A stretch of 16,317 nt of DNA from Planctomycetota bacterium (lineage in GTDB: Bacteria; Planctomycetota; JAMOSO01): assembly GCA_027063065.1 (NCBI GenBank), contig JAMOSO010000017.1, positions 1 to 16,317 of the forward strand. The letters run 5' to 3'. How positions within the stretch are numbered: the stretch's first letter is position 1; each line of letters begins with the position of its first letter. This document shows, in pieces, positions 3,619 through 10,232 of the stretch. A program made the position numbers and the translations under genes. The notes under the pieces were generated by a model. The model was not told where the DNA came from. It saw only the letters and a list, made by a program, of their open reading frames with translations, and searched no databases.

Positions 3619-4602
3619 TTAATTTACCAAGCGTATATAATCTGTATTGGTTTGGGCTATACGTTCGGCCAAACTGATTGCTATTTTCTCTAATAATCCA
3701 GGCATAAATGAAGTAAATTGTTCTAATTTAGTAATACATATGCTTGCTAAAGTGCAAGCAGTTTCTGTGCGAACAGTTGCACTTCGTGGTTGACTTAACA
3801 ATGACGACATTTCTCCAATAATGGAGCCTCGCTCGCCTAGGCTTGCAACGTGTCTACCGTCAACTTCGATATTAAGTTTGCCATCTAATAATATATATAA
3901 GTCTAAAGATGTTTCGCCTTGTTTGAATAATGTCTTACCTGCGGGGTATGTTTTAGTCATTCCTGATTGAGAATCATTTGTTTTGTCAAAAGCTTGGGTA
4001 ATATCTTGTTCACTAACTGTCGATGTGGATTCTTCTGATATTTTTTGATTTATTTCGTGCAGTTTCATAGCTAGATTGCGACATAGCCTTACCATAACTA
4101 AGGGTTGTGTTTTTGCTTGACCTATTAAAGATTTGCCATCAAAACTATGTACCATACAATCTGTTTTGGCAATTGCAGTTGCGCTGCGGGGTTTGGATCG
4201 TATAGCTGCCATTTCACCAATAAATGAACCTTCTTTGTTGATAGTAGCAATAATACGATTATTTATTTTTATTTCAATTTCACCATTTAAAAGTAAAAAT
4301 GCAGTATGTGTATTCTCGCCTGCTTCAAATAATACAGTGCCAGCAGGTATTTGTTTGCCAATTTTTATCACTTGCTTAGTAGCTTCTTTTTCGTAATTTG
4401 CAATATTGTCTTTAACGATTTGATTTAAATTTAGTTGAGGCTTTACTACAATAATATTACTTTGTAATAATTTAGGTATTTGGTGCAACAATTCAGAAGT
4501 TAATTTTTGACCAGCAGGTACAATAATGTTTTTACCATCTACAATATCTCTCAATATTGTTAGACCAGTAGCAAATTTTATTGGGATGTGATTAGTATGC
4601 AT
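3619..4602 (-). CDS. protein with two cyclic-nucleotide-binding domains
   Basis: A 327-aa cytosolic protein with tandem cNMP-binding (CRP/PKA-R type) beta-roll domains at about 78-190 and 212-325. Each has the PAGxxLFxxGE opening (86-95 and 220-230) and a phosphate-binding cassette with both key residues: GEM and PRSAT at E130/R139 and again at E264/R273. Both sites therefore look competent to bind cAMP or cGMP. No DNA-binding HTH, kinase or membrane segment is present, so output must go through a partner. The first 60 residues form a different small module, with DIVDGKNIIVPAGQKLT (19-35). It reminds me of short leader modules found before HD-type signalling domains; that is inference. An AAAGGGG Shine-Dalgarno lies 4-5 nt upstream of the ATG. 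The gene follows tRNA-Arg by 21 nt on the same strand and may be co-transcribed with it. Confidence 0.88.
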   Translation of the reverse strand: MHTNHIPIKFATGLTILRDIVDGKNIIVPAGQKLTSELLHQIPKLLQSNIIVVKPQLNLNQIVKDNIANYEKEATKQVIKIGKQIPAGTVLFEAGENTHTAFLLLNGEIEIKINNRIIATINKEGSFIGEMAAIRSKPRSATAIAKTDCMVHSFDGKSLIGQAKTQPLVMVRLCRNLAMKLHEINQKISEESTSTVSEQDITQAFDKTNDSQSGMTKTYPAGKTLFKQGETSLDLYILLDGKLNIEVDGRHVASLGERGSIIGEMSSLLSQPRSATVRTETACTLASICITKLEQFTSFMPGLLEKIAISLAERIAQTNTDYIRLVN

Positions 4603-4785: not shown

Positions 4786-5382
4786 TCAAGAAAGTTTCTG
4801 CATATATAGATTTTGTTCTTTAATATATTTGATAACTGTAGGATTAAGCATATCTGTATGTTTATAAATGTCTTCTCGAATCATAGTAGAAGAAATAGCT
4901 AATGTATTTATTTTATGATAATAACTTTTTAACTTTTTTTGGATTGCAATAGGTAGTGCATAATCTATCTCTTGAGTTTCTCCAGGTCTAATAACTATCA
5001 ACGGTTCTATGATTTCAAGCAATTTACGCCATGATTTCCATGTGGAAAAAATACCAGCCATATCGTTGCCCATAATAAAAAATAATTTATCATTAGGATG
5101 TAATTTCTTAAAGTGCAAAGCGGTATTAATTGTGTAAGATGGACCTTTTGTTTGATTTTCGTAATCACTAATTTGAAATAGAGGTTCATCTTTTATGGCC
5201 AAGGAGGCCATTTTGTATCTATGTTTAAATACAGTTATTGTTTTGTTTAATTTATGCGGAGGTAAGGCTGAAGGTAAAAGAGTGACGCGATCTAATTGAC
5301 ATACTTTAGCTAACTCTTTAGCAGCATGTATGTGACCTGAATGTATGGGATCAAATGTCCCGCCTAAAAGTGCGTGTCGCAT
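4786..5382 (-). CDS. nadD: nicotinate-nucleotide adenylyltransferase
   Basis: Adenylates nicotinic acid mononucleotide with ATP to give deamido-NAD, the penultimate step of NAD synthesis. The 198-aa length is typical. Nucleotidyltransferase signatures are visible: GGTFDPIHSGH (7-17) with the HxGH-type motif at 14-17, PPHK (41-44), PSYTI (81-85), FIMGNDM (102-108, family FIIGxDxL), TWKSW (114-118) and ISSTMIR (163-169). The ATG at 5382 puts the GGTFDP motif at the usual distance from the N-terminus. No clear Shine-Dalgarno is seen. The gene is divergent from the HTH-PilZ gene across 50 bp. About 88 nt separate its stop from tRNA-Arg. It is not next to the usual obgE/rsfS partners. Confidence 0.95.
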   Translation of the reverse strand: MRHALLGGTFDPIHSGHIHAAKELAKVCQLDRVTLLPSALPPHKLNKTITVFKHRYKMASLAIKDEPLFQISDYENQTKGPSYTINTALHFKKLHPNDKLFFIMGNDMAGIFSTWKSWRKLLEIIEPLIVIRPGETQEIDYALPIAIQKKLKSYYHKINTLAISSTMIREDIYKHTDMLNPTVIKYIKEQNLYMQKLS

Positions 5383-5384
5383 AC

Positions 5385-5402
5385 ATAAATTGTTACATTT
5401 AT
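5385..5402. promoter_or_regulatory. inverted repeat in the nadD / HTH-PilZ intergenic region
   Basis: ATAAAT (5385-5390) and ATTTAT (5397-5402) form a 6-bp inverted repeat around TGTTAC, lying between divergent nadD and the HTH-PilZ regulator gene. It could be an autoregulatory operator. In AT-rich DNA an element this short can arise by chance. Confidence 0.25.
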
Positions 5403-5432
5403 ATGGTAAAAGTCCATAAAAAAGGAGAAAAA

Positions 5433-6020
5433 ATGAAAATCACTCAAGATATGATCGCGACACGTGCTGGTGTCGACCGTTCAACTGTGAGTAAAATTTT
5501 AAGTAACAATCCTAATTATCACCCAAATGAACATACAAGAGAAAAAGTTTTTAGAATTGCAGAGGAATTGGGTTATGATTTTGGAGCAATTCATAATCCA
5601 TTAAGGCGTAAATATAGTAGATTTGATGTAAATGTAGCAGTGTCTTTTAAAATTGTTTTTGAAAGTGGTGAAATATTTGATACGGGTACAGGAGTCTTAC
5701 GTAATATCTCTACTGGTGGAGCATTATTAACAGACATTAAAACCACTAAAGAGACATTGCCTATTAAATTTTTTACTATTGAGGTTGCTGTAAATGAGAT
5801 TGAGGGTTTGCAAGATATTGTTGCAGAATGTGAAGTAGTTAGATTTGGTATAGAAGGTACTAGCATATTAGCTCAAATAGGATTAAAATTTCGAAATTTA
5901 CTGCCAACAGCTCGTCAAAGGGTTAATAATTTTTTGGAAACACGTAAAACACAACGCATTGAAGAACGCATACAAAAAATGGGTAAAGCTCCAGAAGGTT
6001 CGGTTTTAGATAGGCGATAA
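5433..6020 (+). CDS. LacI-type HTH fused to a PilZ domain (putative c-di-GMP-responsive DNA-binding protein)
   Basis: A 195-aa protein. Residues 1-50 match the LacI/GalR DNA-binding head: a first helix with MIATRAGVD, the recognition helix RSTVSKIL (16-23), the NNP turn, then [16 protein letters not shown] (35-50), equivalent to the family TRERVLxAAxELGY hinge approach. The usual LacI sugar-binding domain is absent. Residues 56-170 instead form a PilZ domain with both c-di-GMP-binding motifs: RxxxR as R59-R63 in RRKYSR and (D/N)xSxxG as N91-S93-G96. The tail 171-195 is charged. An AAAGGAG Shine-Dalgarno (5421-5427) stands 5 nt before the ATG at 5433 and decides the start; an ORF extended to 5355 would reach into nadD. 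It heads a tight five-gene cluster. DNA binding and c-di-GMP binding are inferred from motifs; target genes are unknown. Confidence 0.85.
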
Positions 6021-6022
6021 TA

Positions 6023-6193
6023 ATGGGGAGAAAATATTTAAGTGTTATGTTTGAATGTTGTTCTGTATATCAACGCATTTATATAAATAAAGCGGAAACA
6101 GCTTATGTAGGCTGGTGTCCAAAATGTTGTAAAAAAGTATCAATAAAAATTGGTTCGAAAGGGACTAGCACAAGGCATTTTAGGGTAAGTTAA
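6023..6193 (+). CDS. small putative zinc-ribbon protein (56 aa)
   Basis: This short ORF starts 2 nt after the HTH-PilZ stop and ends 1 nt before the next ATG, which supports it as a real gene in the cluster. The product is basic, with cysteines at C12, C13, C32, C35 and C36. The pairs FECC (10-13) and WCPKCC (31-36) would make a one-zinc ribbon. The rest is short beta-strand-like sequence ending [14 protein letters not shown] (43-56). I recall small planctomycete proteins with a similar layout (Cys pair, VYxRIYxN, CPxC, IGxxGT, RxF), but cannot verify this here. No Shine-Dalgarno is visible, so translation may depend on coupling. An internal ATG at M9 (6047) would remove the first eight residues. 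Function unknown; RNA, DNA or protein binding are all possible. Confidence 0.72.
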
Positions 6194-6194
6194 T

Positions 6195-7700
6195 ATGAAT
6201 CTTGAAGAATTAATTAATCAAAGTAATGCGCTTATTCGTCAGGATAAAGATAATCTAGTAGCCGAGATTAAGATTCACGGTTATGATGGTAAAATAGACG
6301 ATATTATTACTATTATTAAACAAAACAAAACAAAATTAGATGACGATGCATCTATTTTGGAGCAAAAAATAATAGAATATCAAAAAATTTTAGAAAAACG
6401 CAGTAAACCTGTTTTGAAATTAACCCAGGCAGCTTTAACACTCTGCCTTTCTCAAGGAGCAGAGATGGATGATCTCGATGACTTATTAGGTGAAGATAAT
6501 AAAGAAACAAATACAGAAGTGGATTTAGATGAGTTATTAGGCGAACAAAGCGCAACGGAAGAAGTTGACTTAGATGCACTCTTAGATGATGTTACACAAA
6601 CTGATTCACCAGATAGTGTTGAAGCTCCATCAACTTCCGATGAAGGTGATGGGTTAGATGCTTTATTAGAAGAAACTAATGAAAATATAGACGAAACTGA
6701 TGGTTTAGACTCTTTATTGGATGAAAGTTCTGACACTGAGGATAATGGTTCAAAAGATGATTTAGATGCTTTATTGGATACAAATACTGACTTAACTGAA
6801 TCAACTGACGACCCTGTTGATGAAGACAATATAAATGAAGATGTTGTTTCAGGTGCTTGTGCTAAGGATGAGTTATCTGCCGATGAGGTGGTTGAGACTG
6901 AAAATGCTATAGAAGAGCCTCTTGATGATGCTAAAGTGGAAGATGAAACTACAGAAAAAGATATTAGTGAAGAATTAGAAATAACTAATAATGTTACAGA
7001 AGAAGCCTCAGCAGATACAGTTGATGAAGACAATATAAATGAAGATGTTGTTTCAGGTGCTTGTGCTAAGGATGAGTTATCTGCCGATGAGGTGGTTAAG
7101 ACTGAAGATGCTATAGAAGTGCCTCTTGATGATGCTAAAGTGGAAGATGAAACTACAGAAAAAGATATTAGTGAAGAATTAGAAATAACTAATAATGTTA
7201 CAGAAGAAGCCTCAATAGATACGGTTGAGGTTGACGATGTAAGTGAGAATGATGACAATGCAGAAACTGCAACAGTAGATGAAAATGAAAAGTCAATAAT
7301 ACCAGAAGATGAATTACTTTCTGAGGTGATGGATTTTACAGAGGAAAGTGACGAATCTGATTTAGATTTAGATTTAGATATTGATGAACATATTGAAAAT
7401 ATTCAAAGTGGGTTTATCGCTAGCGTTAAAGAAGCTGGAACTAAAGTTAGAATAGAGGGGGAAGAAATTAGCAATGAAAAGGTGCTAAGTTCTACATTTA
7501 GACTGCTTTCTGTAATTGATGGAGAAGATACAGTATTGTTAGAGTCCGATAAAAAAGAAACAATTGCCAATGAGTATATATCTCAATTAAATCAATTTAA
7601 AGCGAGTGAGTTATGTGTAGTTGAAGTTTTGTATAAAGAATTACAGGTAAAACGTTATGAATCTATCGAAATGCCTATTAATGTAGGTGTAAAGTTTTAA
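6195..7700 (+). CDS. acidic, repeat-containing protein with six LDxLL motifs
   Basis: I do not recognise this 501-aa protein. Residues 1-80 look helical and partly coiled-coil (ILEQKIIEYQKILEKR at 54-69) and contain no signal peptide. Residues 91-207 are a low-complexity Asp/Glu tract with six LDxLL motifs at 94, 111, 126, 154, 171 and 190. Residues 208-343 are two nearly identical 68-residue units, each with one cysteine in SGACAKDEL. More acidic linker follows. Residues from about 390 to 501 look folded, with mixed helix and strand, ending in NVGVKF. Very strong acidity predicts a disordered, soluble middle. The LDxLL elements resemble short helical docking motifs; binding is inference. It starts 1 nt after the Zn-ribbon stop, and its TAA overlaps the next ATG (TAATG, 7698-7702). 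There is no homology-based function. Confidence 0.88.
   Translation: MNLEELINQSNALIRQDKDNLVAEIKIHGYDGKIDDIITIIKQNKTKLDDDASILEQKIIEYQKILEKRSKPVLKLTQAALTLCLSQGAEMDDLDDLLGEDNKETNTEVDLDELLGEQSATEEVDLDALLDDVTQTDSPDSVEAPSTSDEGDGLDALLEETNENIDETDGLDSLLDESSDTEDNGSKDDLDALLDTNTDLTESTDDPVDEDNINEDVVSGACAKDELSADEVVETENAIEEPLDDAKVEDETTEKDISEELEITNNVTEEASADTVDEDNINEDVVSGACAKDELSADEVVKTEDAIEVPLDDAKVEDETTEKDISEELEITNNVTEEASIDTVEVDDVSENDDNAETATVDENEKSIIPEDELLSEVMDFTEESDESDLDLDLDIDEHIENIQSGFIASVKEAGTKVRIEGEEISNEKVLSSTFRLLSVIDGEDTVLLESDKKETIANEYISQLNQFKASELCVVEVLYKELQVKRYESIEMPINVGVKF
6816..7223 (+). repeat. 204-bp in-frame tandem duplication
   Basis: Copies at 6816-7019 and 7020-7223 differ by my reading at six bases only. 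Four residues change (E to K, N to D, E to V, A to I, the last needing two base changes) and one change is silent. The unit is exactly 68 codons, so the reading frame is kept. A start of a third unit (GTTGA) follows at 7224 but diverges at once. This is a recent duplication within the acidic protein. Confidence 0.95.
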
Positions 7701-8425
7701 TGGGTGTATTTGGTGATGTTGTCAAATCGTTTGTTACTCTAGCATTGAGTGACAGCGTTGTAGACGATAATTATAGGTTGGGGCTTGAGCAGGCGTCTAA
7801 GCATTATCTAAACGCTGTTGAGTCTCGATCTGATGCCGAATTTAAAAAAGTTTTTCAGATTTTACAAGCATTAGACAAATTTATTCCTAGTGACGCATCT
7901 GCGATTATAAACAAGTATCAATTATTAATACAAACTCATCTTAAAGTAGCTGAAATTGCATTAGAAAATTTGCAATTAGATTTACAAAAAGCAGATGGCA
8001 ATGCTCAAACTCCTGACGAAGAAAAACCTGTAAATAGTTTACATTTAGAATTAGCTAATATTATACAGCACTTAGAAGCCGCTGAGGTTAAAAAAGATTA
8101 TTTATTAAGGCAGTCGTATAGTGTTAAAAATGATGCTGAGCTTAAAGATGTAAAATCTAAAATATTGCAATTAAAACAAAGAAAGCACGAGTTAGAAAAT
8201 GCTATTTTGATGGCCACTAGCAGAGGGGCCGAAAAGAAAGTAATGAAGTCTGCTTATGAAAATAAAATAAATATAGCGTTGCGAGCAACTTTAGAGTGTT
8301 TAGTAGAATTAAACGGTATAACTGATTTTAGTTCTAAGAATGCGCAACAAAAAACAGAGTTAATTTCTAATGCAAAAAAAGCAATCGAATATATAAATAA
8401 TGCATTAAAGGAGGCTGTCCATTGA
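7700..8425 (+). CDS. helical protein of unknown function
   Basis: I do not recognise this 241-aa protein. It appears all-helical and soluble, with no signal peptide or transmembrane segment. The N-terminus MGVFGDVVKSFVTLAL is amphipathic and might touch membrane. Residues about 20-100 contain helices reminiscent of a TPR-like hairpin (GLEQASKHYLNAVESR), but no clear repeat consensus. A Pro/Asp/Glu linker at about 100-110 leads into a long coiled-coil (about 115-170, including KSKILQLKQRKHELENAIL) and a final helical bundle ending in AKKAIEYINNALKEAVH. The ATG overlaps the stop of the acidic protein by one base and the stop overlaps the yicC start by TTGA, so it is embedded in a translationally coupled run. 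A partner or scaffold role for its neighbours is inference. Confidence 0.85.
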   Translation: MGVFGDVVKSFVTLALSDSVVDDNYRLGLEQASKHYLNAVESRSDAEFKKVFQILQALDKFIPSDASAIINKYQLLIQTHLKVAEIALENLQLDLQKADGNAQTPDEEKPVNSLHLELANIIQHLEAAEVKKDYLLRQSYSVKNDAELKDVKSKILQLKQRKHELENAILMATSRGAEKKVMKSAYENKINIALRATLECLVELNGITDFSSKNAQQKTELISNAKKAIEYINNALKEAVH

Positions 8426-9291
8426 GTATTAAGAGTATGACTGGTTTTGCCAGTTTGAGCCAAGAGGGTGTGGATTTTCAAATACAAGCAACAATATCTA
8501 GCGTAAATGGTAAAGGTGCTCAAGTTAAAGTGAGATTGCCAGAGGCCTACCGTCATTTAGATATACCAATTAGAAAGAAAATAGCTTCACAAATATCACG
8601 AGGTAGTATCAATTTAAGTGTAAATATTCATTTGGATAATTCTATGCCAATTAAAATAGATAAATCTCGTTTAACCTCTTTTTTAAAAAGTATAGAAGAT
8701 GCTACGGGATACAAGCCTACTGAAGTTAGTATTCAAGATATCTCAGTAATACCAGATATATTTATAGAGGATATAGATGTAGTACGTGCAGATATAGAGC
8801 TAGCTATTGATCAAATAATAACAAATTTGTTAAATGACTTTAATCAAATGCGTACGGTAGAGGGTAGCTCTCTTAAAATAAACTTGGAATCACAATTGTC
8901 TGAAATAAAGAAATTAGTGAAAGAAATAAGAGATTTATCCGCTGGGGCTGTTGAAATAAATATGCAAAAAATTAAAGATAGAGTGCATAATCTTTTAAGT
9001 GGTTACGATCAGGAGATAAAACGAGAGGATATGTTACGCGAAGTAGCTATTTTAGCAGATAAATGTGATATTACAGAGGAATTAGACCGTTTAGATGCAC
9101 ATATACCAGCTTTTCAAAAAGCCTTGTCTGAAGGTAGGGTAGGTAAGAAATTAGATTTTATTTTACAAGAAATGAATCGGGAGACTAATACAACTGGTTC
9201 TAAAACTTCTCAGGTAGAAGTTTCAGAAAGGGTTATTTCTATCAAGAGTTTAATCGAGGCTATGCGTGAGCAGTCATTAAATATAGAATAA
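8422..9291 (+). CDS. yicC: YicC-family endoribonuclease
   Basis: The YicC/YloC family comprises endoribonucleases; E. coli YicC is reported to take part in decay of the small RNA RyhB. The 289-aa length is standard. The N-terminal signature SMTGFA (5-10) is present, followed by RLPEAYRHLD (38-47) and RGSINLSV (60-67). The C-terminal DUF1732 part is well conserved: REVAILADKCDITEELDRL (206-224), GKKLDFILQEMNRETNTTGS (241-260) and a terminal REQSLNIE. The start is TTG at 8422, chosen because an AAAGGAGG Shine-Dalgarno (8407-8414) sits 7 nt upstream and the SMTGF motif then falls at the usual position. The TTGA overlap with the previous stop suggests coupling. The common downstream partner gmk is absent; tRNA genes follow. 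Confidence 0.95.
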   Translation: MSIKSMTGFASLSQEGVDFQIQATISSVNGKGAQVKVRLPEAYRHLDIPIRKKIASQISRGSINLSVNIHLDNSMPIKIDKSRLTSFLKSIEDATGYKPTEVSIQDISVIPDIFIEDIDVVRADIELAIDQIITNLLNDFNQMRTVEGSSLKINLESQLSEIKKLVKEIRDLSAGAVEINMQKIKDRVHNLLSGYDQEIKREDMLREVAILADKCDITEELDRLDAHIPAFQKALSEGRVGKKLDFILQEMNRETNTTGSKTSQVEVSERVISIKSLIEAMREQSLNIE

Positions 9292-9530: not shown

Positions 9531-9567
9531 AAATGGCAATCACTGAAAAGTGGTTGCCATTTTTTTT
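9531..9567 (+). terminator. intrinsic terminator after tRNA-Leu
   Basis: ATGGCAATCACT (9533-9544) pairs with AGTGGTTGCCAT (9549-9560) with a single G-U pair, closed by a GAAA tetraloop. Flanking A and T bases can extend the stem. A run of eight T (9560-9567) follows. It should end tRNA (and any yicC read-through) transcripts and insulate the purine operon. Confidence 0.92.
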
Positions 9568-9629: not shown

Positions 9630-10232
9630 ATGCCTAAAATAAAACGAGCTTTGGTTAGTGTTTCAGATAAATCTGGTATTCTTGAATTTTGTCAGGGCTT
9701 AAGTAATTTAGGCATTGAAATTGTTTCGACTGGTGGAACATCTAAACTGTTAAAAGATAATAATGTGCCTGTAATGGATGTTTCAGAAGTAACTGGTTTT
9801 CCAGAGATGATGAACGGCAGAGTTAAAACATTACATCCTAAAATTCATGGAGGCATTTTGGCTGTTCGCGATAATCCAGAGCATGTTACAGCTATGCAAG
9901 AACACGATATTACAGGTATAGATATGGTTGTAGTTAATTTATATCCATTTGAAGAAGTAATGAAAAAAACTAATGTATCATTAGAAGAACTAATAGAAAA
10001 TATCGATATTGGCGGTCCAACTATGATTCGTTCTGCTGCAAAAAACAATCGTGATGTTACCGTCGTTGTGTCTCCTGATGATTATGCTAAAGTTTTAGAT
10101 ATGCTTAAAAATAATCAATTAGAAATTCCACAACAACAAAATCTAGAATTGGCTATTAAAGCCTTTGGGCGCACAGCTCAGTACGATACTACAATCAATA
10201 CTACTTTAGCAAAGCGTATACAAGGAGAATAA
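9630..10232 (+). CDS. purH: IMP cyclohydrolase (stand-alone PurH N-terminal domain)
   Basis: Closes the ring of FAICAR to give IMP, the last step of de novo purine synthesis. The 200-aa product covers only the cyclohydrolase (MGS-like) domain. Normal PurH is above 500 aa, with an AICAR transformylase domain that is absent here. Conserved pieces are SDKSGI (12-17), STGGT (33-37), GRVKTLHPKIHGGIL (63-77), NLYPF (103-107) and DIGGPTMIRSAAKN (126-139). Residues equivalent to the known catalytic set of PurH are present (K66, Y105, D126, K138). The stop is followed by purD one base later with no leftover transformylase sequence, so this is a genuine split form rather than a frameshift. GGAG at 9621-9624 precedes the ATG by 5 nt. 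AICAR formylation must be encoded elsewhere. Confidence 0.93.
   Translation: MPKIKRALVSVSDKSGILEFCQGLSNLGIEIVSTGGTSKLLKDNNVPVMDVSEVTGFPEMMNGRVKTLHPKIHGGILAVRDNPEHVTAMQEHDITGIDMVVVNLYPFEEVMKKTNVSLEELIENIDIGGPTMIRSAAKNNRDVTVVVSPDDYAKVLDMLKNNQLEIPQQQNLELAIKAFGRTAQYDTTINTTLAKRIQGE

Follow-up and report, generated by a model that had tools for sequence, protein, structure and literature searches.

A LacI-type DNA-binding head joined to a PilZ domain: a conserved, apparently undescribed family of predicted gene switches in Planctomycetota

Introduction

In LacI repressors, the operator centre is read by a hinge helix with the signature YxPNxxAxxL, whose leucine enters the CpG step. In most known c-di-GMP transcription factors the ligand sites are unexpected and hard to predict, and to our knowledge the c-di-GMP effectors of Planctomycetota are barely known. 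MrkH requires c-di-GMP for DNA binding, and the substitution R113A abolishes its activity (PMC3161979). No factor covered by two reviews of the field (PMC12564702, PMC10519070) pairs PilZ sensing with a LacI head, and the word "LacI" is absent from both.

Here we analyze a 16,317-nucleotide stretch of a Planctomycetota contig (the window). A first-pass annotation, made from its sequence alone, had noticed a LacI-type helix-turn-helix (HTH) head and PilZ motifs in one protein and had proposed a compact transcription factor whose DNA binding is switched by c-di-GMP. This protein belongs to a conserved, apparently undescribed family of predicted gene switches, the genes of which are probably under their own control. 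Its novelty lies in the pairing: both domains are known, and a LacI-PilZ protein was not found in the literature searched, where most subscription journals fall outside coverage.

Results

Domain architecture and predicted structure

Features of the locus are listed in Table 1. The ribosome-binding site AAAGGAG lies directly upstream of the ATG at 5433 (preceding sequence, AAAGGAGAAAAA), and this start matches the position of the starts in relatives; a longer open reading frame beginning at 5355 is thus unneeded.

Table 1. Features of the fusion gene and its surroundings in the window.
Feature	Position	Strand	Basis
Divergent gap to nadD (- strand), 50 bp, holding AAAGGAG	5383..5432		ORF spacing
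LacI-type HTH and PilZ protein, 195 aa	5433..6020 (stop included)	+	Translation, Pfam, predicted structure
LacI-type HTH head, residues 2-50	5436..5582	+	Pfam, structural matches, model helices
Linker, residues 51-58	5583..5606	+	Low-confidence stretch of the model; in the place of the LacI hinge helix, hinge signature missing
PilZ beta-barrel, residues 58-168	5604..5936	+	Pfam, six model strands, structural matches
R59-x-x-x-R63, putative c-di-GMP motif 1	5607..5621	+	Conservation, positional match to YcgR/MrkH
N91-x-S93-x-x-G96, putative c-di-GMP motif 2	5703..5720	+	Conservation among 36 sequences
Long C-terminal helix, residues 158-184	5904..5984	+	Model
Closely packed downstream genes	6023..9291	+	ORF spacing, Pfam
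56-aa CxxC protein	6023-6190	+	CC and CxxCC motifs, FECCSVYQ...WCPKCCKK
Very acidic 501-aa protein	6195-7700	+	Repeated DLDxLLxE motifs; internal duplication, VDEDNINEDVVSGACAKDELSADEVV twice
Coiled-coil protein	7700-8425	+	ORF list, Pfam
YicC	8422-9291	+	Pfam

Both domains scored above their Pfam gathering cut-offs, LacI over residues 8-48 (36.9 bits, E = 3.2e-9, cut-off 27) and PilZ (PF07238) over residues 58-168 (35.5 bits, E = 1.4e-8, cut-off 22.5). The first-pass annotation had placed the LacI head in residues 1-50 of a 195-aa protein and had read the motifs R59xxxR63 and N91xSxxG96 further on; the head, for which the matching fold is also predicted, is where it was said to be, and counting on the translation puts both motifs at just these residues.

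The structure predicted by AlphaFold2 from an alignment of 22 sequences has a mean pLDDT of 88.6 and contains both the HTH and the PilZ barrel. Head helices span residues 5-12, 16-23 and 33-46, and the barrel is six-stranded, followed by a long helix (158-184) that is possibly a dimer helix and is shorter in many aligned relatives. The linker is poorly determined (pLDDT 61 for block 51-60). The best Foldseek matches were PilZ proteins, with MotI (E = 2.5e-5), YcgR, Alg44, MapZ, BcsA and MrkH in the lead. In a second structural comparison of the matches, the PilZ part aligned with YcgR-c-di-GMP (Z 12.3, 2.3 Å, 112 residues), MotI (Z 12.2) and, as the closest solved PilZ transcription factor, MrkH-c-di-GMP (Z 11.2, 2.4 Å, 113 residues); the head aligned with those of RbsR, CelR and CcpA (Z of about 8-9, 1.1-1.9 Å, 47-49 residues). 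Residue 57 of the model pairs with YcgR 112 and MrkH 107, and if the initial alignment residues are gap-free, R59 and R63 would correspond to residues 114 and 118 of YcgR and 109 and 113 of MrkH.

Conservation and phyletic distribution

We searched the same phylum with the single protein (294 genomes) and with an alignment (392 genomes). A first scan of genome contigs with the single protein gave no match; a narrower alignment found relatives. The two-domain layout recurs in 36 distinct full-length proteins, which represent some 15 groups of family level within Planctomycetota (our groups f1, f2, f5, f7, f21, f24, f33, f37, f46, f57, f72, f77, f81, f83 and f96), which in the aligned set are 23-46% identical to the window's protein. 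Scanned singly with Pfam, 19 of 22 relatives matched PilZ and 18 matched LacI. Close relatives were not comparable, since among the genomes searched the window's genome is the only one from its order and class. Every source genome is metagenome-assembled, a setting in which two adjacent genes could be joined by an assembly or annotation artefact; the junction, however, is identical in all 36 distinct sequences, which come from many independent assemblies and have both domains in a single open frame, and we give this explanation next to no weight.

R63, P110 and R137 are each kept in all 36 sequences, G96 in 35 and R59 in 34. Position 91 is N or D in 30 sequences and E in five, and position 93 is S in 26 and G in nine; in members of group f46, NIGxxG replaces NxSxxG. 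The recognition helix (V19, K/R21, I22, L23) is well conserved across the set. Because the motif residues are shared so widely among the 36 full-length sequences and both folds are confidently predicted and match solved structures, the motif is far beyond chance. The observation of the two domains and their motifs is confirmed, and it gains weight because it defines a conserved family.

Strict-threshold searches of two other phyla, represented by a Duganella locus (398 genomes) and a Lachnospiraceae locus (299 genomes) and both without an internal positive control, gave no match. Plasmids, phages and viral contigs yielded matches to the LacI head only and no fusion. Planctomycetota also contain PilZ-only relatives. 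The N-terminal part of one PilZ protein (L025:1288-1866) resembles a decayed LacI-type head (ESRRMVFKAAGG...RETRRREV), a sequence that suggests loss of the DNA-binding head. A tree of the PilZ parts, itself poorly resolved, is compatible with a single fusion and a few head losses.

Does the PilZ domain sense c-di-GMP?

Domain matches in the window's genome (2.13 Mb, 90% complete) comprise eight to GGDEF, of which six show a clear, intact GGEEF, two to EAL and seven to PilZ. Given these GGDEF and EAL domains, c-di-GMP is very probably both made and broken down in the host, and a c-di-GMP switch in the window's protein is plausible. PilZ domains without ligand binding exist, and the one studied here might likewise serve as a dimerisation or partner-docking module in an autorepressor under other control. 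The variation of S93 in f46 and L005-like members and the loss of R59 in two of the 36 sequences would fit such a role. However, the near-complete retention of R59, R63 and G96 down to 23% identity, at positions that are ligand contacts in YcgR and MrkH, and the presence of c-di-GMP synthesis domains in the genome make a PilZ domain that does not sense the nucleotide unlikely, at perhaps one chance in six.

The LacI hinge and the central CpG

The hinge signature YxPNxxAxxL is missing in the window's protein and its relatives; the pattern of the family is YDFxxxRxxx instead, and the PilZ RxxxR motif starts immediately after this replacing segment. A full-size LacI protein of the same genome carries GYKVNPLARGL at its hinge. 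At position 57, where LacI repressors have the leucine that enters the CpG step, the window's protein has L, but most relatives have H, F or N. Since the signature is absent and this leucine is not conserved, reading of a central CpG does not carry over from LacI repressors. The expected recognition of a palindrome with CpG at its centre was therefore not borne out; the candidate operator described below also has no constant central CpG.

A candidate operator in relatives

In f46 genomes, a sigma70-type promoter (TTGACA-N17/18-TACACT; TTGACA...TACACTCTGTGCATTCTGAATATGCACA) precedes the fusion gene and is immediately followed by TGTGCATTC, which is invariant across five genomes despite diverged flanks. 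The full dyad, TGTGCAT-N7/8-ATGCACA, is present in four of the five, just after the -10 box of the fusion gene itself. When whole genomes were searched with the strict pattern GTGCAT-N4-11-ATGCAC, the upstream dyad was the sole match in G140 and G109, one of two in G075 and one of four in G055. In six of seven f46 genomes, the upstream 350 bp show a 6-20 fold enrichment of GTGCA half-sites. Across 1.2 Mb of G055, these half-sites cluster most densely upstream of the fusion gene, with 10 in 350 bp (the next densest cluster has seven). A member of another family-level group (L051) has TGTGCGGATATGCACA at the equivalent spot after the -10 box. Because the motif was chosen after inspection, a motif-free shuffle test is the fair one; in it, 4-13 of 300 shuffles equalled the perfect arms of 7-8 bp for each of the four genomes.

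Half-sites of the LacI family include TGTGA, which TGTGC resembles. From this resemblance and from the gene's place beside the site, we infer that the fusion protein binds the TGTGCAT dyad in f46. The position of the conserved dyad after the gene's own -10 box, together with the upstream half-site clusters, implies that the gene is probably autoregulated. The spacing between the arms is 7 or 8 bp in f46, and in L051 it is shorter by about 5 bp. Such variation would not be tolerated by a rigid LacI dimer, and a flexible linker that permits it is the only explanation we can offer.

No dyad was found upstream of the fusion gene in most of the distant relatives, and the upstream region of the window's own gene contains neither the dyad nor a significant operator. 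The best inverted repeat there, ATAAATTGTTACATTTAT, was equalled in 50 of 300 shuffles and was rejected; the one exact dyad in the window's genome lies inside a coding sequence and was taken as a chance match.

A nucleoid- or RNA-associated factor, or a partner protein under c-di-GMP control, might be envisaged in place of a site-specific regulator, since with the hinge missing the high-affinity specific operator binding of LacI proteins may be lost, and the window's own gene yielded no operator. A precedent is CdbA, a nucleoid protein acted on by c-di-GMP (PMC7156744). This role is hard to reconcile with the gene-specific dyad at the promoter and the half-site clusters in relatives, or with the well-conserved recognition helix, and we regard it as improbable, clearly more so than a PilZ domain without ligand.

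A cluster of seven intergenic GTGCA half-sites also lies at L163:1618-1960 (G055:C3:781619), upstream of an ORF. This ORF, which by eye resembles the small membrane protein of ATP synthase operons (AtpI/AtpZ type), is a possible second target in f46.

Gene neighborhood

The gene for the 56-aa protein starts 2 bp after the fusion gene, and its product matched no Pfam family above the cut-off. The acidic protein has a GapR-like N-terminal match, below threshold, as its sole match. The fusion gene stands at the head of this closely packed + strand set. Judged by their spacing, the genes from 6023 to 9291 probably form one transcription unit that ends at a hairpin found by the terminator scan after yicC (9531-9562). 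Beyond it, at 9630-10232 (+), a PurH-like protein of only 200 aa, which appears to consist of just the IMP-cyclohydrolase half, adjoins purD. On the other side of the fusion gene, 3619-4602 (-) encodes two cyclic-nucleotide-binding domains (Pfam, 106 bits) and thus a second nucleotide-sensing protein nearby.

Among the relatives' loci compared, none shares the window's neighbor genes, and synteny is therefore uninformative about targets in the window. The f46 locus has genes for a LysM protein and a citrate-transporter-like protein upstream and a TPR/transglutaminase-like gene downstream (four to six genomes).

Discussion

We consider it likely, at close to three chances in four, that the window's protein is a one-component, c-di-GMP-responsive, probably autoregulating local transcription factor, with ligand binding presumed from its motifs. 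In the mechanism we propose, the LacI-type head would bind DNA half-sites and the PilZ barrel would bind c-di-GMP through R59/R63 and N91/S93/G96. Because R59xxxR63 begins at the LacI hinge point, ligand binding could make the short head-barrel linker ordered, which would shift the relative placing of the two heads in a dimer and switch DNA binding either on or off. Among relatives, the protein would most likely bind the TGTGCAT dyad overlapping its own transcript start and regulate its own gene, perhaps its operon. We infer several elements of this scheme: ligand binding, dimerisation, occupancy of the dyad by this protein, the direction of control and its targets in the window's genome. The original proposal of a compact factor switched by c-di-GMP thus gains from the domains, the family, the GGDEF/EAL context and the candidate palindrome in relatives, and loses its central CpG.

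More tentatively, and with somewhat less than an even chance, the family may form a Planctomycetota-wide class in which the PilZ motif replaces the LacI hinge and provides an order/disorder joint driven by a nucleotide, with relaxed operator spacing. If so, a single allosteric joint would be driven by a nucleotide messenger rather than by a sugar core. A LacI head that can couple to a non-sugar sensor without the hinge would be a useful case for how allosteric control over DNA binding evolves. The sequence itself makes the readout legible, with a textbook DNA head, a textbook c-di-GMP sensor and a predicted operator in relatives, and the protein might be of use in building c-di-GMP reporters.

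Each half of the protein has well-studied counterparts. With MrkH of Klebsiella it has in common a PilZ barrel with RxxxR, which in MrkH controls DNA binding; the N-terminus of MrkH is a YcgR-N-like beta domain without an HTH, whereas the window's protein has a LacI-type HTH. The PilZ fold and motif positions are also those of YcgR and MotI, in which an N-terminal beta-barrel acts on the flagellar motor in the place of the DNA-binding head. The HTH head is shared with the LacI/GalR proteins RbsR, CcpA and PurR. Unlike these, the window's protein is 195 rather than about 330 residues long, lacks the hinge signature, and has a PilZ barrel and a helix where they have a periplasmic-binding-protein-like sugar core. 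BldD, FleQ, VpsT, BrlR, CLP and LtmA are HTH factors as well, and their binding to DNA is responsive to c-di-GMP (PMC12564702, PMC10519070).
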